A DNA stretch of 64,000 bases from Lachnospiraceae bacterium. GTDB lineage: Bacteria; Bacillota_A; Clostridia; Lachnospirales; Lachnospiraceae. The number at the start of each line of letters is the position of its first letter. Within the stretch, counting starts at the first letter, position 1. Where the stretch lies: positions 62,001 through 126,000 of the forward strand of contig JAETQR010000002.1 in NCBI GenBank assembly GCA_021770615.1, given 5' to 3'. The notes under the pieces are model-generated. The model ran no database searches, was not told the DNA's origin, and was given only the letters and a program-made list of their open reading frames with translations. A program made the position numbers and the translations under genes. Of this stretch, positions 13,701 through 29,695 are shown piece after piece.

Positions 13701-14680
13701 GTAAATTCCCCCGGTATAACTGTTGACGGTACAGATGGTTTTCCCGGTTCTGTCGGGTTCGTAACTTCTATCTCTTCCACTTTACCTTTTGAGGTTACGG
13801 TGCCAGCGTATGACCAACTTGAGGAGGACATGGTATCTGATAATGCCTTAAGATTTAAATGCAATGCCGGACGGACGGCTGTATTACTGTCGTTGACATG
13901 GCCGCCACCCCGAGACACAGAACCATGCCCCATCACATCCGAAGCGAGACTACTACGGAACCCTGGCGACCGAAGCCACCAATAGCCATTTCCTGCATAC
14001 GTATCACTTAACTCAGAATATGTCTTTGCTCCCCGTGCTTTTGCATACTCTGTAGTTTTTGCCCATCTGCTTTTATCATTCTCATTATAATCTGAGGAAA
14101 ACCCATATGCCGAATTCGTTACCTCATCTAACGACAGCAGATACACCTTGTCTGACGTACTATTTCCACCCTCTGTGTTGTTCTCAGGATTATCATTATT
14201 CACTACATTAATGGTCTTGATTGCCGACCGCTCGCTTTTTGAAAACGCATTATGTAGGAAGTTATTTCTACCATAGCTTTTACCATCATTATTTGCATCT
14301 CCCCCATATCCGTTCAGCCAGGTACGCATCGTACAAGTTTCCCATGTAACATCGGTATCGGTATCATTATATTTTCGACAGTCGAGGATTTTATCTGCCA
14401 CCAAAAACGCATCATCCCCATCCACCGACAGCATACGCCACTTAATCGGGGTTTTTGCATCGTTTTGATCCGCTTTGCCATCCCCGTTCGTATCCTCTTG
14501 CCAGTAGTTCCCGAACCACACGCAGTCCCATGTCGTGACGCCGTCACTGTCCGTTCTTGGGTTTTTCAGTAGCGTGGCGGCTTCTGCCACATACTCCGGC
14601 ATGATTCCCTGGCACACTGGAATCAGTAGTGTCAGTATCAAGAGAAATGATAATAATTTTCGTGTTTTTTGCTTATGCAT
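10727..14680 (-). CDS. giant secreted protein with four DUF6273 units and FN3-like tail
   Basis: The start at 14680 follows GGAAGGAGACACC; an in-frame codon eight residues earlier lies before that site. The 1317-residue product has a signal peptide (KLLSFLLILTLLIPVCQG). Four DUF6273 units of about 290 residues follow, separated by proline-rich linkers ending in TPGEITG-like text, then the shared FN3-like tail. Each unit carries an EDTNGDGKADKND acidic loop resembling Ca-binding DxNxDGxxD loops, VTWETCTMRSWLNGYG, WWLRSPG and VRPALHLNL. The DNA of the four units is very similar, so recombination could change copy number. Probably a cell-surface or secreted protein; ligand unknown. Confidence 0.85.
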   Translation of the reverse strand: MHKQKTRKLLSFLLILTLLIPVCQGIMPEYVAEAATLLKNPRTDSDGVTTWDCVWFGNYWQEDTNGDGKADQNDAKTPIKWRMLSVDGDDAFLVADKILDCRKYNDTDTDVTWETCTMRTWLNGYGGDANNDGKSYGRNNFLHNAFSKSERSAIKTINVVNNDNPENNTEGGNSTSDKVYLLSLDEVTNSAYGFSSDYNENDKSRWAKTTEYAKARGAKTYSELSDTYAGNGYWWLRSPGFRSSLASDVMGHGSVSRGGGHVNDSNTAVRPALHLNLKALSDTMSSSSWSYAGTVTSKGKVEEIEVTNPTEPGKPSVPSTVIPGEFTGKLNNPTTDADGIVIWDCVYFGNYWQEDTNGDGKADKNDEKTPIKWRVLSVEGNDVLLLADENLDCQKYNETYTDVTWETCTLRSWLNGYGAEVNQEGKDYSDNNFLDNAFSKSEQLGITITDVVNYDNSTYGTKGGNNTLDKVYLLSINEVMEQTYGFSSDNSADDHGKRGKTTEYAKQQGVKTYSVISDIYAKYGYWWLRSPGRYSYFDSNVDDYGSVSEDGEFVHNSSSAVRPALHLNLSSISNWSYAGTVNSEGKVKETGAANPIKSEKPSTPPTFTPGEITGRLNNPTTDANGIVTWDCVYFGNYWQEDTNGDGKADKNDAKTLIKWRVLSVDGNDAFLLADKNLDCQRYNDTDENVTWETCTMRSWLNGYGAGFNISGKDYSDDNFLDNAFSESEQSAIRTTDIVNNVINANLESDIMYGGNDTSDKVYLLSISEVMNPSYGFTSIMDSTDTREAVNTAYLAAGGEIKSSYMSSAGSTNIWWLRSPAYGSSRASYVDSNGYVFLSGDDVCDDHVAVRPALHLNLSSTSGWSYAGTITSEGGETSATTPTPKPSASAAPSDQPDVSPTATPGEVTGTLKNPTTDADGMVTWDSVYFGNYWQEDTNGDGKADKDDDKTPIKWRVLSVDGDDAFLLADKNLDCQSYNDVCRAVTWETCTMRSWLNGYGAEKNKDGKDYSNNNFLNNAFSETEQAAIKITNVVNSDNSEYGTEGGNDTSDKVYLLSLDEVTNPAYGFSGSSYDLRRAAKTTEYAKAQGVWADDPWDVYIDDGCWWLRSPGENSDDASYVGVGGPIYDYDVCGNNFYGNEYAARPALHLNLRASSDDVSSVVWSYAGTVTVEGEVEEPEETDKPSAPAPTPGIPSQPGISSVTSFVPQQGSAVTPASGILPDSGKNTVGKVTDLKLKQKKYIVTASWKKQTGVKGYQICYSTSKKWKGKKQKLVTKNNAVIKNLKKKKTYYFRVRAYRLQGTKKVYGAWSSVKKIKIKK

Positions 14681-14867
14681 GGTGTCTCCTTCCTGTTCTG
14701 TCAAGCCGTAATCATGGATTTACATAGCTTTGACATATTTTTTATCTCTAAAACAAAACTATAAATACAACTTAATCAACAGAAAAAACATCCCCTCATC
14801 ACAGCGAGTTTTTCATAACTAGATGTACAGAATGGGGGGGAGTTTTTTCTTCTGTATTTCCTTCCCT

Positions 14868-16880
14868 CTATTTCTTAATTTTTATCTTCTTCACACTGCT
14901 CCATGCCCCATAGACCTTCTTTGTTCCTTCTATCCGGTAAGCCTGGACACGGAAGTAATAGGTCTTCTGCTTTTTGAGATTTTTGATCACTGCGTTGTTT
15001 TTCGTAACCAGCTTCTGCTTTTTGCCCTTCCATTTCTTAGAAGTGCTATAGCAGATCTGGTATCCTTTCACCCCGGTTAGTTTCTTCCATGAAGCGGTCA
15101 CAGTGTGTTTTTTCTGTTTCAGTTTCAAAGCTGTCACTTTTTCGACCGTGTTCTTTCCCGAATCCGGTGAAATGCCTGATACCGGAGATGCCACAGAACT
15201 CTGCTGCGGTACAAAAGGTGTCACAGAAGAAGTAACTGGCTGGGATGGCTTTCCAGGTGTCGGTGCTGGGGCGGATGGCTTCGGGGTTGGTGTCGTTGCC
15301 GATGTCTCTCCCGGTGTAAGCGTGGGCGGTAAGGATGGTTTTCCCGTGCTTCCCGGTTCTGCCGGTTTTGTAACTCCTGTCTCGTCCACTTCTCCTTCCG
15401 AATTCACGGTACCAGCGTATGACCAGTTTGAAGTGGATGATAAATCTAAATGCAAAGCAGGACGAACGGCTTCATAAAAGTCAACCCAATCACCCTGTTC
15501 GTACACGTATCCATCGTCCTTCACATAAGATACGTTACTATAAAAGTCACCAGGCGACCGGAGGTACCATATTCCCGTCCCGTCGCTTGAATTCCATATA
15601 TGAGCATTATTACATTCAGCATAATCTGTGTTCTTCGCCTGCCTTGTTTCCTCAACTCCATAAATCTCTGATGCAAACCCATAGTCTGTATTACATACCT
15701 CATCTACTGACAGAAGATATATGCGGTCCACCGTGTCATTCCCGCCCGCCGTACCATATTCCGGGTTAGCTCCAGTGACAACTGTCGTTTTCATGATTGC
15801 CTCCCGCTCACTACTGTTGAATGCCTCACTATAAAAATCTTCATTCAGCCATTTTCGGAGCGAACATGTTTCCCATGTCACATCTTCATCTTTTGCATTG
15901 TATGGCTTGCCGTCCAGACACTTATCTGCCAGCAAAAAGGCATCATCGCCATTGACCGACAGCACCCTCCATTCAATCGGCTCCTTTTTCCATTCTGCCG
16001 TTTGTTTATAATTTCCCAAGTACACACAGTCCCACGTAGTAACCCCATTGCTATCTTTCTTAGGAGCGCTGATTCCATCATCCTTGTTTGTCACGTTTCC
16101 TTCCGAATCTACTTCACCGGCATCCGTATGAACAGAAGATGACAGATTTAAATGTAAAACCGGTCGCACGGCCTCATTATTGTAGACATCGCTACCCTCC
16201 GGACCTATGTAGTCACTCTCCACGTCTTTGGCCCTACTGCTATCATTACCAAGTGACCGAAGCCACCAATCACTCGTCTCGTTACCGTTACTATTTGCAT
16301 TAATATTTGTATATGCGTGATTGCATTTGGCATAATCTGTATTTTCCGACTCTCTCGCAGAATCCACTGCAAACCCGTAGTCTGCATTACATGCCTCATC
16401 CACCGACAGAAGGTAGATGTGGTCCATCGTGTCATTCCCGCCCGGTGTTCCATATTGCGGATTATCTTTATTGACAACTGCCGTTTTTATGATCGCCGCC
16501 TGCTCGCTACTGTCAAATGCCTCGTTATAAAAATCCTCATTCAACCATTTCCGGAGAGAGCATGTTTCCCATGTTACATCTTCCTCTTTTGTATTGTAGG
16601 GCTTGCAATTCAGACATTCGTCTGCCAGCAGGAATGCATCATCCCCATTAACCGACAGCACCCGCCACTTAATCGGCTCGGGCTTAAACTTCGCTGTCTG
16701 GTAATAGTTACCGAACTTCACCTTGTCCCATGTTGTAACTCCGTCACTGCCCGTCCTCGGGTTATGCAAAGTCGTGGCAGCTTCTGCCACTCGCTCCGGC
16801 ATGATTCCTTGCCACAATGGAATCAGCAGTACCAACGTCAGCAAAAATGATAATAGTTTTCGTGTCTTTTTCTTATACAT
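14868..16880 (-). CDS. secreted protein with two DUF6273 units and FN3-like tail
   Basis: The start at 16880 follows AGGAGGAGACATC; a longer frame exists but begins upstream of this site. The 670-residue product has a signal peptide nearly identical to that of the 1317-residue neighbour (KTRKLLSFLLTLVLLIPLW). Its two DUF6273 units (near 40-260 and 280-480) lack the acidic DTNGDGKAD loop and read FGNYYQTAKFKPEPIKWRVLS instead. The linker and FN3-like tail are almost the same as in the neighbour, showing recent duplication. It is the first of the tandem block and begins 18 bp after the membrane gene at 16899-17483. Confidence 0.85.
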   Translation of the reverse strand: MYKKKTRKLLSFLLTLVLLIPLWQGIMPERVAEAATTLHNPRTGSDGVTTWDKVKFGNYYQTAKFKPEPIKWRVLSVNGDDAFLLADECLNCKPYNTKEEDVTWETCSLRKWLNEDFYNEAFDSSEQAAIIKTAVVNKDNPQYGTPGGNDTMDHIYLLSVDEACNADYGFAVDSARESENTDYAKCNHAYTNINANSNGNETSDWWLRSLGNDSSRAKDVESDYIGPEGSDVYNNEAVRPVLHLNLSSSVHTDAGEVDSEGNVTNKDDGISAPKKDSNGVTTWDCVYLGNYKQTAEWKKEPIEWRVLSVNGDDAFLLADKCLDGKPYNAKDEDVTWETCSLRKWLNEDFYSEAFNSSEREAIMKTTVVTGANPEYGTAGGNDTVDRIYLLSVDEVCNTDYGFASEIYGVEETRQAKNTDYAECNNAHIWNSSDGTGIWYLRSPGDFYSNVSYVKDDGYVYEQGDWVDFYEAVRPALHLDLSSTSNWSYAGTVNSEGEVDETGVTKPAEPGSTGKPSLPPTLTPGETSATTPTPKPSAPAPTPGKPSQPVTSSVTPFVPQQSSVASPVSGISPDSGKNTVEKVTALKLKQKKHTVTASWKKLTGVKGYQICYSTSKKWKGKKQKLVTKNNAVIKNLKKQKTYYFRVQAYRIEGTKKVYGAWSSVKKIKIKK

Positions 16881-16898
16881 GATGTCTCCTCCTAGCAT

Positions 16899-17483
16899 TT
16901 AATTCAATTTTTCTTTTATATTACTCATGATACTCAAGTAACTTTCTCTTACATTTTTTGTTTCCCATACAGTTTTATTTAGCAAAAATACCACTCCAAA
17001 TAGCAATAAAGCAAATATAAACACCAAAGAATTTCTCAAAGAAATAGATAAAATTTCTTTGAACTCAATCCCTAAATTCATATAGTGCACGATACATGCA
17101 GACAAGCTACAAAAAAATCCTATTTGAACAGCACCAGTTCTTCGTACAAATCTCTTAAACTTATTATGTATCCTCTTGTCATTTATTTCCCTATTTTCTG
17201 CTTCAAACAAAATGTTTACATTCTCCCAATCATTTTCATTTTCCAAAAAAACCTGGATATATACGCCAAGCTTGATCATCGCATTGCGTTTAATATTAAT
17301 AATAGATTGAAAAGGAATGATAATCAAATATGGAAACAAAAAAATCAATTCATCATTTTGACTAAAGGCAAATACCAAAATGCTAATGGAGATTGTATAC
17401 ATTGCAACGATGTAGTTATTTTGCATTGTAATACAGTTCAATATTTCATTTCTTAATGCACTATATTCAGTTTCACTATTCAT
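16899..17483 (-). CDS. small multi-pass membrane protein of unknown function
   Basis: Not recognised. The start at 17483 is set by AAGGAGAAGGGGT directly before the ATG; the frame stays open upstream through the inverted repeat at 17521-17546, but that part is unlikely to be translated. The 194-residue product has hydrophobic segments near 20-35, 42-60, 115-135 and 145-170 around a charged central loop (ENENDWENVNILFEAENREI). It is the gene closest to the invertible segment and would be first in line for a promoter switched leftward, followed at 18 bp by a DUF6273 secreted protein. The membrane location is clear from composition; the role is not. Confidence 0.7.
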   Translation of the reverse strand: MNSETEYSALRNEILNCITMQNNYIVAMYTISISILVFAFSQNDELIFLFPYLIIIPFQSIINIKRNAMIKLGVYIQVFLENENDWENVNILFEAENREINDKRIHNKFKRFVRRTGAVQIGFFCSLSACIVHYMNLGIEFKEILSISLRNSLVFIFALLLFGVVFLLNKTVWETKNVRESYLSIMSNIKEKLN

Positions 17484-17520
17484 ACCCCTTCTCCTTGTTC
17501 TATTGGTATTTCCAACATAA

Positions 17521-17546
17521 TTATCAAAAAGTGTACTTTTTGATAA
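17521..17546 (+). repeat. hix-like recombination site, left copy
   Basis: Twelve-base arms TTATCAAAAAGT and ACTTTTTGATAA surround a central GT. Apart from that dinucleotide the site is a perfect palindrome of 26 bp, the size of Hin hix sites. The outer ten bases on each side equal those of the synthetic hixC site (TTATCAAAAA ... TTTTTGATAA, from memory). The asymmetric centre gives the site a direction. Confidence 0.8.
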
Positions 17547-17621
17547 TCCCTCTTCATCTAAAAAACACAACACATTTTCCATGATATGTATACAAAAACA
17601 AAGCAAAATTACAGATTTTAT

Positions 17622-17680
17622 TTGTGAAATTCAAAAAATCCGTGTATATTATTGCACCAACATCAAAAATATGGTAGAAT
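17622..17680 (+). promoter_or_regulatory. two rightward sigma-A promoters inside the invertible segment
   Basis: TTGTGA (17622-17627) with TATATT (17645-17650), and TTGCAC (17652-17657) with TAGAAT (17675-17680), each have exactly 17 bp spacing. Both point right, into the antisense of the recombinase 3' end. After inversion they would point left, toward the membrane protein and the DUF6273 genes. A weaker leftward pair (TTGAAT-N17-TAATTT) is also present, so the present state need not be fully off. Confidence 0.6.
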
Positions 17681-17694
17681 ATTTTTTAATCTTT

Positions 17695-17726
17695 AAACTA
17701 TCAAAAAGTACACTTTTTGATAGTTT
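17695..17726 (-). repeat. hix-like recombination site, right copy (inverted)
   Basis: The 26-bp core at 17698-17723 has arms CTATCAAAAAGT and ACTTTTTGATAG around AC on the plus strand, which is GT on the minus strand. Read on the minus strand it matches the left site at 24 of 26 positions, in opposite orientation. The symmetry extends to 32 bp (AAACTATC...GATAGTTT). It lies 3 bp after the recombinase stop codon. Confidence 0.8.
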
Positions 17727-17729
17727 ATT

Positions 17730-18371
<642 letters not shown>

Positions 18372-18580
18372 TTATTTATATTACAGGCTTTGCACCAAAT
18401 AGCACAGCCCGGTAATAGTGGCTGTAGCAGCATGCGCCATTGTGGCAGAAGTTTTGCCATAAGGAAGGTTCCTTTAGCATACATTATATATTCCATTGAA
18501 ATCAAATATTGATTTTCCAATACCAATACGTTATAGTTAGCATAACGGTAATCAAAAACAAAAAGGAAATGGAGCTACCG

Positions 18581-18976
18581 ATGGAACTCTTAACACTAAA
18601 CATTCATATCCTTGAAACGAATGAAGTTATTTCCGAAAATACTATCGTCCGCATGATATTATTTGATGGCGAATGTACGGGAAACTTTTTTCACGGGACA
18701 ATTATAAGCGGTGGTGTTGACACACAGATTATAAAGAAAAAGGAGTATACTTCCCTATCGGCACGGTATATCGTAGAGGGATATGATAATACTGATACGC
18801 CGTGCCGTCTGTTTATCGAGAACAACGCCAAAAGCAACACAGACATTATAACTACCACTCCAAAAATTTATACAGACAGTACAGCCCTAAAATGGATGGA
18901 ACAAAAAAAATTAACCGGAACACTCGAATTTAAAGATGACAACCTGATAATCCATATTCAGGATCCGTCCAAATAG
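18581..18976 (+). CDS. DUF3237 family protein
   Basis: The start at 18581 is chosen for the GGAG six bases upstream; another ATG lies at 18569. The 131 residues show the DUF3237 barrel pattern: an early TLNIHI strand, GECTGNFFHGTIISGGVDTQI, then a YTSLSARYIVEG strand and LFIENNA. Family members are small cytosolic beta-barrel proteins without an established reaction. The gene stands alone between the recombinase and the TSCPD gene, divergent from the recombinase. Family confidence is good; function unknown. Confidence 0.75.
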   Translation: MELLTLNIHILETNEVISENTIVRMILFDGECTGNFFHGTIISGGVDTQIIKKKEYTSLSARYIVEGYDNTDTPCRLFIENNAKSNTDIITTTPKIYTDSTALKWMEQKKLTGTLEFKDDNLIIHIQDPSK

Positions 18977-19013
18977 TGTTATCTTTTGGGGCAAACCGCA
19001 AAATACATCAAAA

Positions 19014-19100
19014 AGCATAGTTTATGTGCCATTACCGCTGCGTATTTATATAGCGGGAGCGCCCATGCCAGGGAAATCCTTTCTTCTAAAATACTTCCCC
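19014..19100. repeat. family B hairpin repeat, right half only
   Basis: It matches the right arm of the complete element at 33709-33890 from TTTATGTGCCATTACCGCTGC onward through TATATAGCGG.AGCGCCCATGCC to the AAATACT end, with scattered changes. The complementary left arm is missing, so this copy cannot form the long hairpin. Confidence 0.7.
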
Positions 19101-19120
19101 CGGTAAACCCCCGCCCCTCC

Positions 19121-19149
19121 TTGACAACCCCACCCATTTTATATAAAAT
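19121..19149 (+). promoter_or_regulatory. sigma-A promoter for the TSCPD gene
   Basis: A perfect -35 TTGACA and a -10 TAAAAT are spaced by 17 bp, ending 35 bp before the TTG start at 19185. Confidence 0.75.
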
Positions 19150-19184
19150 AATTTTCAGTACCAATAAGTCAGGAGGTGAAAAAC

Positions 19185-19442
19185 TTGAAATACTCTTACA
19201 AGACAAAAGGCACCTGTTCGCAGCAAATCGACCTTGAAATCAATGACGATATCATAACAAATGTCAAATTCTATGGCGGCTGCGATGGAAATTTAAAAGC
19301 CATTCCCAAACTGGTCGAGGGCCTGAGCGTAGACCAGATTGTAGAAAAATGCGCCGGAATCCAGTGCGGATTCAAAAATACATCCTGCGCTGACCAGCTT
19401 TCCAAAGCTGTTCTTGCTGCAAAAGAGGCTGCCACAGATTGA
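19185..19442 (+). CDS. TSCPD domain protein (TIGR03905-like)
   Basis: The TTG at 19185 is preferred: AGGAGG lies eight bases upstream, and a GTG at 19176 would overlap that site. The 85-residue protein starts KYSYKTKGTCSQQIDLEI and has cysteines in GTCSQQ, GGCDGN, EKCAGIQCG and TSCADQ, the pattern of the stand-alone TSCPD family. The same fold occurs at the C-terminus of some B12-dependent ribonucleotide reductases. Small, cytosolic, biochemical role not established; the cysteine set suggests metal or redox chemistry. It is followed at about 60 bp by the riboswitch and queT. Confidence 0.85.
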   Translation: MKYSYKTKGTCSQQIDLEINDDIITNVKFYGGCDGNLKAIPKLVEGLSVDQIVEKCAGIQCGFKNTSCADQLSKAVLAAKEAATD

Positions 19443-19498
19443 CAGCCACACATGTTCTGTGCAGATCTGTACTTTCTTGTATTCCGGCACAGGCAAAT

Positions 19499-19541
19499 CC
19501 GTGTGTTCGAAACCATCCACACGTAAAACAAAACTAAGGAG
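19499..19541 (+). promoter_or_regulatory. preQ1-I riboswitch upstream of queT
   Basis: A 6-bp stem CGTGTG (19500-19505) / CACACG (19518-19523) closes a 12-nt loop starting TTC. An A-rich tail TAAAACAAAACTAAGGAG follows, whose end is the ribosome-binding site of queT. This matches the short class-I preQ1 aptamer, in which the tail folds back into the loop and hides the Shine-Dalgarno when ligand binds. The gene behind it is a queuosine-precursor transporter, the expected target. Confidence 0.72.
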
Positions 19542-19549
19542 AATTTAAA

Positions 19550-20041
19550 ATGAAAAACAAAAACATATTATTGATCTGTCAGGCAGCTATGATTGCTGCC
19601 CTCTATGTCGTATTGACTTTTATTGCAAATGCACTTGGCCTCGCAAACTATGCCATTCAGGTAAGATTCTCAGAGGCGCTCACGATCCTTCCCTACTTTA
19701 CACCAGCTGCCATACCCGGCCTCACGATCGGCTGCCTGCTCAGCAACTGGCTTACCGGCTGTGCACCCACCGATATCATTTTCGGAACGATCGCCACGCT
19801 CATCGCTGCTCTTCTCACTTATGCGTTCCGCCGGTTCAAATGGCTGACTCCCCTCCCGCCGATCGCTGCAAATACGATCATCGTTCCCTGGGTTCTCCGG
19901 TATGCCTATGGAATCGGAGATGCTATTCCTTTCCTCATGTTCACAGTCGGCTGCGGAGAGTTTATCTCTGCCGGCATTATGGGAATGTTTCTTCTGTTCT
20001 CGCTTGAACGGTTTGGGAAAAATATATTCAAAGTGAATTGA
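19550..20041 (+). CDS. queT: QueT-type ECF transporter S component for a queuosine precursor
   Basis: The 163-residue membrane protein has about five to six helices. It opens NILLICQAAMIAALYVVLTF and shows QVRFSEALTILPYFTPAAIPGL, GCLLSNWLTG and PPIAANTIIVPW, which mark the QueT family. It would capture preQ1, preQ0 or queuine and work with the shared energizing module (EcfA, EcfA', EcfT), not encoded here. A preQ1-I-like leader overlaps its ribosome-binding site, so translation should fall when preQ1 is plentiful. Confidence 0.88.
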   Translation: MKNKNILLICQAAMIAALYVVLTFIANALGLANYAIQVRFSEALTILPYFTPAAIPGLTIGCLLSNWLTGCAPTDIIFGTIATLIAALLTYAFRRFKWLTPLPPIAANTIIVPWVLRYAYGIGDAIPFLMFTVGCGEFISAGIMGMFLLFSLERFGKNIFKVN

Positions 20042-20094
20042 CTTTTATCGTATACTAAGGGTATAATGCTTGTTAGAAGTTGGGAGGTTCTTCT

Positions 20095-21204
20095 ATGAAA
20101 CGATTTTTTATAGCAGGCATTATACTACTTCTTGTGGTTTCTGCTGTCGTGATCCTGTACCCGGCAAAACCACAACATGAGACAGATACGAACAATGCCG
20201 ATTCTTATGAATATTATTATAATGAAAATGAAGATGAGGAGGACTCACTTTTGCCAGATGATCTGAGTTCCATTCTGACAGACAACCAGACTGTTCCACT
20301 GGATACAATACCAAGCAGCATAACCGTACTGGTAAACCGCATCTACCTTCTGCCATCCAGCTACATTCCTGCAAATCTTGTAGACCCAAACGTTAAATTT
20401 AGTTTTACCTACGTTTCTGACAAAAGAAAAATGCGTAAGGTCGCTGCTACAGCCCTTGAAAAACTTTTTGAAGCCGGTGAAAAGGAAGGCATCATCCTAT
20501 ACGGTGTATCCGGATACCGTTCCTATGCACGCCAGAAGCAGATTTATGATAAAAATATTGCCACAAGGGGACAGGCTGCCACAGATGCTGTCTCTGCCAA
20601 ACCAGGAAGCAGTGAACATCAGACCGGGCTTACGATCGATGTGTCTGCACGCAGTGTAAACTTCCGCCTTGATCAGAGTTTTGGCGATACAAAGGAAGGA
20701 AAATGGCTTGCTAAAAATGCCCATTTATACGGATTTATCATCCGCTATCCTTATGGGAAATCAAAAATAACCGGATACAGCTATGAACCATGGCACATCC
20801 GTTTTGTAGGGAAAACCGTTGCAACCTATCTCTATGAAAATGAGCTCACGATGGAGGAGTATTATGGGGTAGCAGATGAAATGGAAAACGAGGCCGAAAC
20901 CCGTGTCGATGTAGAGGATCCTGATTCTGTAAAATATGCGACTCCAAAACCGACAAAAAAACCAAGCCCGACTTCTACCCCAGAACCCTCTAAGAAACCA
21001 AAGAGCACAAAGAAACCGGTAAAAACAAAAAAACCAGCGAAGACAAAAGCACCGGCCCGGACAAATCCACCGGCAGATATCAAACCGGAGCCAACCGTAC
21101 CGCCGGCAGAACCAACCCCTGTTGTACAGACCGCTCCTCCGGAGCCAACAGCACCACCGTCAGATGTACCTGTTGAAAACGAGAACAACGGCACTCTACA
21201 ATAG
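20095..21204 (+). CDS. D-alanyl-D-alanine carboxypeptidase, M15B (VanY/LdcB type)
   Basis: The ATG at 20095 follows GGGAGG by seven bases. The 369-residue protein has an N-terminal membrane anchor or signal (FFIAGIILLLVVSAVVIL), an acidic linker and the M15 zinc peptidase domain near residues 100-265 (SGYRSYARQKQIYD, SSEHQTGLTIDVS with His and Asp ligands, EPWHIRFVG with the last His). A long Lys/Pro/Thr-rich tail probably lies in the wall. It trims D-Ala from peptidoglycan stem peptides outside the membrane. VanY here refers to family, not vancomycin resistance, since no van ligase is nearby. Confidence 0.87.
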   Translation: MKRFFIAGIILLLVVSAVVILYPAKPQHETDTNNADSYEYYYNENEDEEDSLLPDDLSSILTDNQTVPLDTIPSSITVLVNRIYLLPSSYIPANLVDPNVKFSFTYVSDKRKMRKVAATALEKLFEAGEKEGIILYGVSGYRSYARQKQIYDKNIATRGQAATDAVSAKPGSSEHQTGLTIDVSARSVNFRLDQSFGDTKEGKWLAKNAHLYGFIIRYPYGKSKITGYSYEPWHIRFVGKTVATYLYENELTMEEYYGVADEMENEAETRVDVEDPDSVKYATPKPTKKPSPTSTPEPSKKPKSTKKPVKTKKPAKTKAPARTNPPADIKPEPTVPPAEPTPVVQTAPPEPTAPPSDVPVENENNGTLQ

Positions 21205-21221
21205 AGAAAGGAATCTTTACC

Positions 21222-21959
21222 ATGAGAACGATACTTATTTTATTATTTTATATCATTGTTTGCATAATCAGCGCTCCCCTTCTGCTCATTGAATGCATTG
21301 TGCGAAAAATCAACAAGAGGGCGGCAGCGGCATTTGCGATCCGGATGGTGCGGATTACTTTTCACATGACGTTATTTTTTTCCGGCTGTAAAAAGCATGT
21401 CACGGGAGTCGAAAACATCCCGAAGGATACACCTGTCATGTTCGCTGCAAATCACAGAAGTTTTTATGATATTATCCTTGCTTACGCAACACTTTCTTCT
21501 GCGCATATCCAGACGGCTTTTATTTCAAAAATTGAAATCAAAAAATTTCCGGTTATTGCCCAATGGATGTATTTCCTCAACTGCCTGTTCATGGACCGGG
21601 GTGATATGAAACAAAATATGGGTGTCATTCTCAATGCGATTTCATTGATCAAAGATGGTTACTCGATTTATATCGCACCAGAAGGAACCCGTAACACAGA
21701 AGATGTTCTACTGCCTTTTAAGGAAGGCAGTATGAAAATCGCAACCAAGACAAAAGCGCCAATCATCCCTGTTTGTATCAAAAACACAGAGAGCATCCTT
21801 GAGGACCACTCTCCATGGATCAGGGGCGGACACATCTACATTGATTACGGAGAACCGATTTATCCTGACAAACTTGACAAAGAAGAAAAAAAATATATTG
21901 GTGCCCATGTCAGAAATATCATTCAGAAAATGTACGATGAAAGAGAAATCATTCGATAA
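21222..21959 (+). CDS. plsC: 1-acyl-sn-glycerol-3-phosphate acyltransferase
   Basis: The 245-residue protein has an N-terminal membrane segment (ILILLFYIIVCIISAPLLLI), the acyltransferase HX4D motif in NHRSFYDII near residue 80, and the glycerol-phosphate binding APEGTRNTE near 150. It makes phosphatidic acid from lysophosphatidate on the inner membrane face. It starts 17 bp after the carboxypeptidase stop, so the two are probably co-transcribed, with the following 153-aa membrane protein possibly in the same unit. Confidence 0.88.
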   Translation: MRTILILLFYIIVCIISAPLLLIECIVRKINKRAAAAFAIRMVRITFHMTLFFSGCKKHVTGVENIPKDTPVMFAANHRSFYDIILAYATLSSAHIQTAFISKIEIKKFPVIAQWMYFLNCLFMDRGDMKQNMGVILNAISLIKDGYSIYIAPEGTRNTEDVLLPFKEGSMKIATKTKAPIIPVCIKNTESILEDHSPWIRGGHIYIDYGEPIYPDKLDKEEKKYIGAHVRNIIQKMYDEREIIR

Positions 21960-22048
21960 ATACATCTTTTCATTTTCTGTAAAACATGATAAAATAAGTT
22001 CTGACGGACTAAAATAGAAAGTTTTGAGAAAGAGAGGCACAGTAATCC

Positions 22049-27727: not shown

Positions 27728-29695
27728 CTATCCTCTCCTATTTTCAAAAGCACTCAAAAAATCATCAATACTACTATAGGTTGTGCCGTCCCAGATGACG
27801 CTTGTCAGGTTGCTGCAACCACTAAACGCATACAAACCGATACTCGTCACACCAGCAGGAATCTCAATGCTTGTCAGACTGCTGCAACCACTAAATGCAC
27901 CACTACCGATACTCGTCACATTCGCAGGAATCTCAATACTTGTCAGGCTGCTACAACCACTAAATGCACCACTACCAATACTCGTCACACTCGCAGGAAT
28001 CTCAATACCTGTCAGACTGCTGCAACCTTCAAATGCACCCTCACCGATACTCGTCACATTCGCAGGAATAACGGTGTTCTTACACCCTATAACCAGAGTT
28101 TTGGTATCCCTCGCAATAATCGCATTACAATTATCCGGACTTTCATATGTCAAATTATCCTCTGCTACTACAATTTTCGTCAGGCTGCTGCAACCACTAA
28201 ATGCACTCCAATCGATACTCGTCACACTCGCAGGAATCTCAATACTTGTCAGACTGCTGCAATCACGAAACGCACCTCTACCGATACTCGTCACATTCGC
28301 AGGAATAACGGTGTTCTTACACCCTATAACCAGAGTTTTGGTATCCCTCGCAATAATCGCATTACAATTATCCGGACTTTCATATGTCGAATTATCCTCT
28401 GCTACTACAATTTTCGTCAGGCTGCTGCAACCACTAAATGCACTCCAATTGATACTCGTCACACTCGCAGGAATCTCAATACTTGTCAGGCTGCTGCAGC
28501 CATGAAATGCATTCCCAGCGATACTCGTCACACTCGCAGGAATCTCAATACTTGTCAGGCTACTGCAGCCACTAAATGCATCCGTACCGATACTCGTCAC
28601 ACTCGCAGAAATCTTAATATTTACCAGACTGCTGCAATTACTAAATACAGTTTCACTGATACTCGTTACACCAGCAGGAATCTCAATACTTGTCAGACTG
28701 CTACAATTTATAAATGCATACCCACCGATACTCGCCACAGTATCCGGAATCTTAATACTTGTCAGACTGCTACAACCTGCAAATGCATACCTACCGATAC
28801 TCATCACACCATCAGAAATCTCGATACTTGTCAGGCTGCTGCAGCCACCAAATGCCCTATCACCGATACTCATCACAGTACCCGGAATCTTAATACTTGT
28901 CAGACTGCTGCAACCATTAAATGCACCCTCACCGATACTTGTCACAGTCTCGCTAACTACGACCGCAATCGGATCTTCTGAGTTTCTAATTGCTTCTATG
29001 TTAGATCCATCATACACAATTGTGGGTACTTCTGTCGGCACTGCAGACGGTGTCGGAGTTTCCACAGATGGGCTTCCCGTTGGTGCTGCAGACGGTGTCG
29101 GAGTTTCCACAGATGGGCTTCCCGTTGGCACTGCAGACGGTGTCGGAGTTTCCACAGATGGGCTTCCCGTTGGTGCTGCAGACGGTGTCGGCGTTTCCAC
29201 AGATGGGTTTCCCGTCGGTGCTGCAGACGGTGTCGGCGTTTCCACAGACGGACTTCCCATTGGTGCTGCAGACGGTGTCGGCGTTTCCACGGATGGGCTT
29301 CCCGTTGGCACTACCGTATTCGTTGCCTGCGGCTGGCTGCTAGCAGTCAGTTTCATCCCTTTGGCAGATACCTTCACCGTGCAGGTATACTTCTTTTTAC
29401 CCACGGCTGCCTGTACCTTTGCTGTCCCTTTTCTGATGCCTTTCACTGCAGCATACGACTTTTTCTTTTTGGTAATTGTAACCAGCTTCTTGCCTTTGGT
29501 TACCTTCCATTTTACCTTTTTCGTATTATTTTTCAACTTGATTTTAGCGGTCTTTCCTATGTTCACATTGACTTTCCTGGTAATTCTTACCTTTTTGGAT
29601 GCCGCCTTTGCATTCTGTGATGGTACAGGCAATACCCCGATCAGAAGGCTTGCCACCACCACTACAGCACTTACCCTTTTCCATTTGTTTTTCAT
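27728..29695 (-). CDS. BspA-type leucine-rich-repeat surface protein
   Basis: The 655 residues begin with a signal peptide (VSAVVVVASLLIGVLPVPS). A lysine-rich Ig-like module follows near 30-115 (NVNIGKTAKIKLKNN, VKGIRKGTAKVQAAVG), then a linker of six near-identical 15-residue units (SPSVETPTPSAAPTG). Fourteen LRR_5 repeats of 23 residues (CSSLTSIEIPASVTSI core) fill 245-635, interrupted twice by a VVAEDN..YESPDNCNAI insert. No LPXTG or membrane anchor is visible at the C-terminus. BspA-like proteins bind host matrix or other bacteria; here that is inference. It converges on pdp. Confidence 0.88.
   Translation of the reverse strand: MKNKWKRVSAVVVVASLLIGVLPVPSQNAKAASKKVRITRKVNVNIGKTAKIKLKNNTKKVKWKVTKGKKLVTITKKKKSYAAVKGIRKGTAKVQAAVGKKKYTCTVKVSAKGMKLTASSQPQATNTVVPTGSPSVETPTPSAAPMGSPSVETPTPSAAPTGNPSVETPTPSAAPTGSPSVETPTPSAVPTGSPSVETPTPSAAPTGSPSVETPTPSAVPTEVPTIVYDGSNIEAIRNSEDPIAVVVSETVTSIGEGAFNGCSSLTSIKIPGTVMSIGDRAFGGCSSLTSIEISDGVMSIGRYAFAGCSSLTSIKIPDTVASIGGYAFINCSSLTSIEIPAGVTSISETVFSNCSSLVNIKISASVTSIGTDAFSGCSSLTSIEIPASVTSIAGNAFHGCSSLTSIEIPASVTSINWSAFSGCSSLTKIVVAEDNSTYESPDNCNAIIARDTKTLVIGCKNTVIPANVTSIGRGAFRDCSSLTSIEIPASVTSIDWSAFSGCSSLTKIVVAEDNLTYESPDNCNAIIARDTKTLVIGCKNTVIPANVTSIGEGAFEGCSSLTGIEIPASVTSIGSGAFSGCSSLTSIEIPANVTSIGSGAFSGCSSLTSIEIPAGVTSIGLYAFSGCSNLTSVIWDGTTYSSIDDFLSAFENRRG
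29037..29307. repeat. six tandem 45-bp repeats in the linker of the LRR protein
   Basis: Six in-frame copies of a 45-bp unit (GCAGACGGTGTCGG.GTTTCC core on the plus strand) encode the Pro/Thr/Ser linker. Copies differ by one to four bases. The length is a multiple of three, so copy-number change would keep the frame. Confidence 0.9.

Follow-up and report, generated by a model that had tools for sequence, protein, structure and literature searches.

A 64,000-nt stretch of Lachnospiraceae DNA (hereafter, the window) probably carries a self-contained ON/OFF inverton, in which a small serine recombinase would flip a promoter-bearing segment by way of a DNA loop and one recombination site would serve as part of a terminator. 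Comparison of sequences among relatives argues for this through the pairing of sites, their complementary centres, the position of the promoter, a hairpin tied to one arm, the occurrence of both orientations, quantised spacing and phased AT content. Invertons are a known general kind of element; a whole-turn, pre-curved segment together with an OFF-state terminator built from a recombination site was not found described in the literature searched. More broadly, we lean slightly towards the view that serine invertases working without an enhancer form a family widespread in Clostridia, and that in this family the segment itself would provide both the topological control, as a pre-curved whole-turn loop with AT minor grooves toward the recombinase core, and a terminator complete in the OFF state only. 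An earlier sequence-only reading of this DNA had proposed an invertible promoter and a neighbouring recombinase; both stand, and it foresaw neither the whole-turn spacing nor the phased AT content.

Architecture of the probable switch in the window

The features of the locus are listed in Table 1. On recounting, the two 26-bp sites agree at 24 of 26 positions in inverted orientation, as had been claimed. Taken singly, either site reads as a palindrome over 24 of its 26 positions, the exceptions being the two central bases (GT on the left, AC on the right). No other 26-mer in the 64-kb window is palindromic at 24 positions or more, and a third site of the same arm type was not found there. The pair is also the top inverted repeat of positions 14000-22000 (I1, 27 nt, 96% complementary), the remaining listed repeats of at least 24 nt in that region being 70-79% complementary. 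The outer ten bases had been equated with those of hixC; against what we take to be the hixC sequence, this holds for the left site, and in the right site the outermost base differs on either side. As a side observation, a G/C-rich tetrad, often GGG, is enriched 4-7 nt from the distal site, at inner segment ends (in the window, GAGGGAT in the region 17542-17548). A search of Rfam gave no match.

The sites adjoin the recombinase gene on its 3' side; the gene lies outside the segment, to the right of the switch, where a Hin-family neighbour had been described. Its frame is open along the full length, and its product contains a PF00239 domain (89.8 bits against a cut-off of 23.3). Among solved proteins, Sin/Tn552 is nearest (100 bits), followed by gamma-delta (72 bits), and the "DNA-invertase" entries 4m6f and 3uj3, which we presume to be Gin, score 43 and 42 bits. 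Thus, "Hin-type" is a label that fits the site arms, not the enzyme. The recombinase reaches 30.8 bits with the Mpi family model NF009949, below the curated cut-off of 272.

Table 1. Features of the predicted switch and its surroundings (positions in the window)
Feature	Position	Strand	Details
Secreted DUF6273 protein	14868..16880	-	Fn3-like C-terminus (below Pfam cut-off); 18 bp after membrane protein gene
Membrane protein, 194 aa	16899..17483	-	Nearest gene behind the switch; preceded by an AGGAG ribosome site
Distal recombination site	17521..17546	.	Centre GT at 17533-17534; TTATCAAAAAGTGTACTTTTTGATAA
Invertible segment (predicted)	17534..17710	.	177 bp centre to centre, equal to 16.9 turns of 10.5 bp
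Second promoter-like match	17622..17650	+	TTGTGA-17-TATATT; coincides with no conserved element in relatives
Conserved invertible promoter (predicted)	17652..17680	+	TTGCAC-17-TAGAAT, TGG before -10; toward recombinase, i.e. OFF; position kept in relatives
OFF-state hairpin and T-rich tail	17694..17735	+	Hairpin 17694-17727, 15 pairs; predicted terminator of the invertible-promoter transcript
Recombinase-proximal recombination site	17698..17723	.	Centre AC at 17710-17711; CTATCAAAAAGTACACTTTTTGATAG
Small serine recombinase	17730..18338	-	202 aa if begun at ATG; alternative GTG start of the ORF at 18371

Survey of related loci

One scan of genome contigs confirmed at least 571 relatives of the recombinase, and the best 80 of these were used (67-80% identity; Clostridia, many titled Lachnospiraceae, Oscillospiraceae or Ruminococcaceae). 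Whole-genome searches detected the recombinase in 14 of 245 genomes at E 1e-70 and in 59 of 397, 14 of 58 and 27 of 300 genomes at E 1e-75, from which 89 loci were used, no more than 30 per search. The total came to 170 entries with the window included, a few of which are one place repeated (for example, L098 is L001, and L122 is L057). A site pair lies 3' of the recombinase gene in 103 of the 170 entries (L160 among them is doubtful), with the form TRTCAAAARGTnnACYTTTTGAYA or a variant with the same core. The other 67 have no such pair, and 14 of them have less than 200 nt of contig beyond the gene; at some of the others (e.g. L135, L136, L141 and L183) a generic inverted-repeat scan revealed variant arms. 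The recombinases of four variant-arm loci (L178, L154, L180 and L108) group in a single clade that FastTree supports strongly, as predicted if every enzyme recognises its own arms. A strict pair pattern run over 299 genomes had yielded four pairs in three genomes (L081-L084) and was superseded by the protein searches.

Viral contigs supplied 13 loci. One of them (L085) has a pair of this motif whose sites and spacing equal those of L065, another (L087) has a single site, and a third (L093) has an unrelated inverted repeat; no site or repeat of this kind was found at the other 10. In addition, 136 phage records contain a match, every one below 60% identity.

Complementary central dinucleotides

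When pairs were chosen by motif score, with centre positions left free, 95 of 97 had complementary centres (the 97 are 55 pairs, L002 included, plus L011 and 41 others, a few of which repeat the same place). Such complementarity is expected of a crossover at the 2-bp centre, which is required to match after exchange, and with the centres in opposite orientation it supports the earlier prediction of inversion rather than deletion. Ten of the 95 are of types other than GT/AC (AA/TT, TT/AA, AG/CT, CT/AG and AT/AT), and the centre changes at least 23 times on the recombinase tree, GT/AC and AC/GT being counted separately. One miss is L002 (122 bp, CT/TT), which was judged a false pair and dropped from the orientation and spacing tests; the other is L160 (78 bp, AA/GA, weak second site), kept within the 103 and excluded from the spacing test. 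Seven pairs came from a core method that requires complementary centres; they stand outside the 97, and both the 103 and the spacing test include them. The AT/AT centres (L070, L171 and L179) are symmetric and would impose no direction, and at these loci the inversion-only rule should be lost.

Promoter position and orientation

Two rightward promoters with 17-bp spacers had been read within the segment. Both are readable, and only that at 17652-17680 coincides with a conserved element: in relatives aligned on the proximal site, a promoter of the approximate form TTGCA-17-TRTGGTAAAAT ends about 18 bp inside the site and points toward the recombinase. In the window, this promoter, recognised from its sequence, is flanked by the inverted repeats. 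Promoter-like matches in 16500-19000 were no rarer than chance (11 against 9.3 +- 3.7 expected), in a scan that included the match at 17622-17650 and omitted the conserved pair.

A leave-one-out promoter matrix assigned 48 of 54 segments to OFF (46 with a margin above 3) and six to ON; the matrix was seeded from proximal (OFF) ends before iteration and leans to OFF. L048, which contains masked N, was excluded from the orientation and AT tests. The comparison across related genomes that the sequence-only reading had proposed finds both orientations, and between species, homologous segments mostly share one. The window scores are nearly tied (7.4 against 7.1). That the given orientation is mainly off, as had been suggested, agrees with the conserved promoter facing the recombinase and with the hairpin being stronger at the OFF junction. 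The sole relative informative on the orientation of the window locus is a membrane-protein homologue (P0001, 97% identical, from a cluster of 6), whose N-terminal extension is the translated distal site and segment in the same OFF orientation; no ON copy was seen in the window or in this near-identical homologue. Two OFF copies would also be expected of a switch that is functional in the lineage and locked OFF in this strain, which we consider improbable: the recombinase frame is fully open, both sites are intact, and the spacing is within 2 bp of 17 turns. We infer that this copy flips.

A predicted OFF-state terminator built from the recombination site

At the proximal junction, a hairpin with a T-rich tail would stop the transcript of the OFF promoter ahead of the recombinase gene. 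The hairpin folds with -15.8 kcal/mol in the window, against -8.6 at the virtual ON junction. Over 54 loci, the median folding energies are -18.2 kcal/mol at the OFF junction and -9.25 at the ON junction (p 6e-9), and the 12 nt behind the hairpin contain 6.9 T on average in OFF against 3.4 in ON. A difference above 2 kcal/mol favours the OFF hairpin at 45 of the 54 loci and the ON hairpin at two; nine loci lack an OFF hairpin stronger by this amount. Moreover, at 46 clear OFF loci the recombinase-side flank pairs with the promoter end at 4.9 of 8 nt, falling to 1.96 if the segment is flipped, and at the six ON loci the pairing is reversed (3.0 as found, 4.5 flipped). For five of these six (L007, L039, L052, L057 and L067), flipping the segment back in silico yields a hairpin that is 7.2 to 22.9 kcal/mol stronger, with the largest gain in L007 (-34.4 vs -11.5) and the smallest in L067 (-18.3 vs -11.1); the sixth, L072 (truncated, 91 bp), opposes the rule.

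Covariation was tested at 48 OFF loci for ten arm pairs, numbered outward from the proximal site. Pairs 1 to 5 reach the lowest p that 2000 shuffles allow, pair 9 reaches 0.01, and pairs 6, 7, 8 and 10 do not covary; these shuffles ignore relatedness. Taken with the folding energies, this points to a predicted terminator that is complete solely in the OFF orientation and has the recombination site as its stem. The promoter end and the hairpin also permit an ON/OFF call from sequence alone.

A terminator-like proximal palindrome, and one orientation in most assemblies, might likewise be met in a static element, in which nothing would invert and the palindromes would serve the recombinase gene as operators or terminators. 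We regard this as very improbable, as it gives no reason for complementary centres in 95 of 97 pairs, ten of them other than GT/AC, or for five ON loci whose promoter arm pairs with the recombinase-side flank solely after re-inversion.

Spacing by whole helical turns

The distances between sites form clusters at about 125-127, 136-138, 146-147, 156-158, 166-169, 176-178 and 187-190 bp. With one value taken per sequence cluster, the best period was 10.3 bp (R 0.67; 82 of 85 clusters, 110-200 bp), and none of 5000 jittered sets reached as high; removal of the dominant 133-141 group left a period of 10.55 (n=47, R 0.64). With one representative per recombinase group (below 90, 80 and 75% recombinase identity), 68 of 83, 55 of 69 and 41 of 51 have a spacing that departs from some multiple of 10.5 by no more than 2 bp, where 37.6, 31.3 and 23.1 were expected, and 15 of the 83 lie further off. 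The window spacing is within 2 bp of 17 turns. Four loci fall outside the tested range of 110-200 bp: L015 (253) and L179 (105) are in phase, and L062 (204) and L072 (91) are out of phase.

At least 49 changes of turn class are needed on a tree of 96 recombinases built with FastTree. Among 27 recombinase pairs that are at least 70% similar and differ by more than 3 bp in spacing, that difference is, by tendency, again a whole number of turns (mean cosine 0.47, u 3.4). The distance from the end of the gene match to the site has no periodicity (R 0.10, p 0.83); a second control, the distance from the distal site to the next start codon, gave R 0.35 at a period of 9.9 (jitter p 0.044), out of phase with 10.5. 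The 21-bp difference between the near-twins L101 and L126 was considered as a whole-turn indel and rejected: it comes from a second copy of the distal site. The two still make up one of the 27 pairs. The duplicated site of L101 has the opposite centre, where L126 has one site, and offers alternative partners for recombination.

Phased AT content and predicted curvature

The AT content of 82 segments varies with a sharp period of 10.5 bp, in register with each of the two sites (z 29.7 and 23.7, simple shuffles), with maxima within about 0.6 bp of the phase of the site centres. With dinucleotide shuffles, z is 19.9 for the whole segment, 12.7 for the first 60 nt at the promoter end and 16.6 for the remainder. 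AT periodicity is absent from 79 stretches further downstream (z -0.1) and from the upstream side of the recombinase (150 nt; z -0.5, dinucleotide shuffles); two further controls, inside the recombinase gene and in the 60 nt outside the distal site, are not flat (z 2.4 in each). Taken one by one, 42 of 82 segments reach significance at 0.05, as do 5 of 81 upstream controls, and the window segment by itself is modest (p 0.031).

A roll model predicts for 80 of 82 segments a bend to the side on which the minor groove of the site centre lies. In resolvase structures, the minor-groove side of the site centre faces the catalytic core, so this side would be the inside of a loop closed by the recombinase tetramer. 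The model is consistent with a segment that acts as a pre-bent loop and permits synapsis without an enhancer, its phased curvature performing the role that the Fis enhancer would otherwise have; segments of this kind, pre-bent and of whole-turn length, may account for flipping without the helper protein of the Salmonella switch.

It is possible, with a likelihood well short of even that overlaps that of the main reading, that the phasing has another cause. The element would then be an ordinary inverton, its AT pattern and length would serve wrapping by an HU-like nucleoid protein or support of the promoter, and an unknown accessory protein would aid synapsis. The promoter end does hold part of the periodic signal (z 12.7 in the first 60 nt), and according to passages of PMC4817059, HU stimulates the Fis-activated Hin reaction with the enhancer near a hix site. 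However, the signal continues past that end (z 16.6) and keeps in register with each of the two sites, and site spacing is quantised where the gene-end-to-site distance is not (R 0.10).

Proposed mechanism

For the window, we propose the following course. The recombinase would bind both sites and join them by bending the 177 bp (about 17 turns) into a loop, with both sites on one helix face and the AT-rich minor grooves inward. It would then cut the 2-bp centres, exchange the strands and rejoin them, leaving the segment inverted. In OFF, the conserved promoter would point toward the recombinase, and its short transcript would fold promoter arm, site and outer flank into the terminator. In ON, it would point toward the membrane protein and DUF6273 genes, and the arm, unpaired with the new flank, would allow readthrough. 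About 100 natural segments (103 pairs), and probably many more given at least 571 recombinase relatives, offer a direct prediction on phasing: 5 bp added to the segment should abolish inversion, and 10 bp should restore it.

Comparison with known systems

Hin/hix of Salmonella resembles the present switch in its small serine recombinase domain, promoter inversion and 26-bp near-palindromic sites with TTATCAAAAA arms. The invertible segment of Hin is about 1 kb, against 177 bp here; a paper of 1993, judging by its title, reportedly dealt with looping and helical repeat. Unlike Hin/hix, the switch has an enzyme nearer to Sin than to the Gin entries, a recombinase outside the segment, whole-turn spacing and an OFF-state hairpin. 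To our knowledge, Fis is absent from Clostridia. Wild-type Hin needs Fis and an enhancer according to passages of PMC4817059, and the helical dependence of the Hin enhancer is described in parts of PMC3798978.

The invertons of gut bacteria from the PhaseFinder work are alike in having a promoter between inverted repeats, an adjoining recombinase and surface genes nearby. In passages of PMC11892184, the invertases named as over-represented close to groups of invertons are of the tyrosine type or are integrases of unspecified type, and "serine recombinase" and "helical" have 0 occurrences in its main text. The flagellar switch of Clostridioides difficile (RecV, 154 bp) is likewise a short clostridial ON/OFF switch in which OFF transcription is terminated; it lies within the mRNA leader, and its OFF transcript is terminated by Rho (passages of PMC7446863). 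Here, by contrast, the predicted promoter is inside the segment and an intrinsic hairpin would be formed by the recombination site. The Sin, Tn552 and gamma-delta resolvases, the best matches of the recombinase among solved proteins, act at multi-subsite res for resolution, unlike the two single sites in inverted order found here. The open literature searched, of which coverage was partial, gave no report of whole-turn spacing or phased curvature in invertible segments, and we do not claim their absence from print.

Genes behind the switch

Left of the switch, the gene order is as had been described, with a membrane protein gene followed by DUF6273 secreted proteins; the first two genes are probably co-transcribed. 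The 194-aa membrane protein had no Pfam match at 0.001 and no family above cut-off in further searches. An ORF on the recombinase strand, to which the search was confined so that the count says nothing of gene direction, follows the distal site at 51 of 55 loci, within 153 bp in 47. By one crude rule, 23 of the 51 first products have a secreted or membrane-anchored-like N-terminus, against 101 of 641 background ORFs, and the switch often precedes secreted or surface proteins of gut Clostridia. Families among 49 scanned products (the window and L038 excluded, and the second ORF used for L043) include BspA-type LRR (6), Listeria-Bacteroides repeats (5), AMP-binding (4), zinc ribbons (4), SPFH (3), S-layer (2) and others.

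The recombinase cassette appears portable between loci, as closely related recombinases precede unrelated genes (L028/L073 and L021/L041). Related recombinases with unrelated genes downstream are seen in the cassettes of L028, L073, L007, L165, L021 and L041. At L074 (4454-6966), the switch precedes a short peptide with a double-glycine-like leader together with a protein of 756 aa, predicted to have five TM stretches, which by eye resembles a peptidase-containing exporter; this is possibly a phase-variable bacteriocin. Elsewhere in the window, positions 27728-29695 encode a BspA-type LRR protein with a repeated ETPTPSAAPTGSPSV linker.
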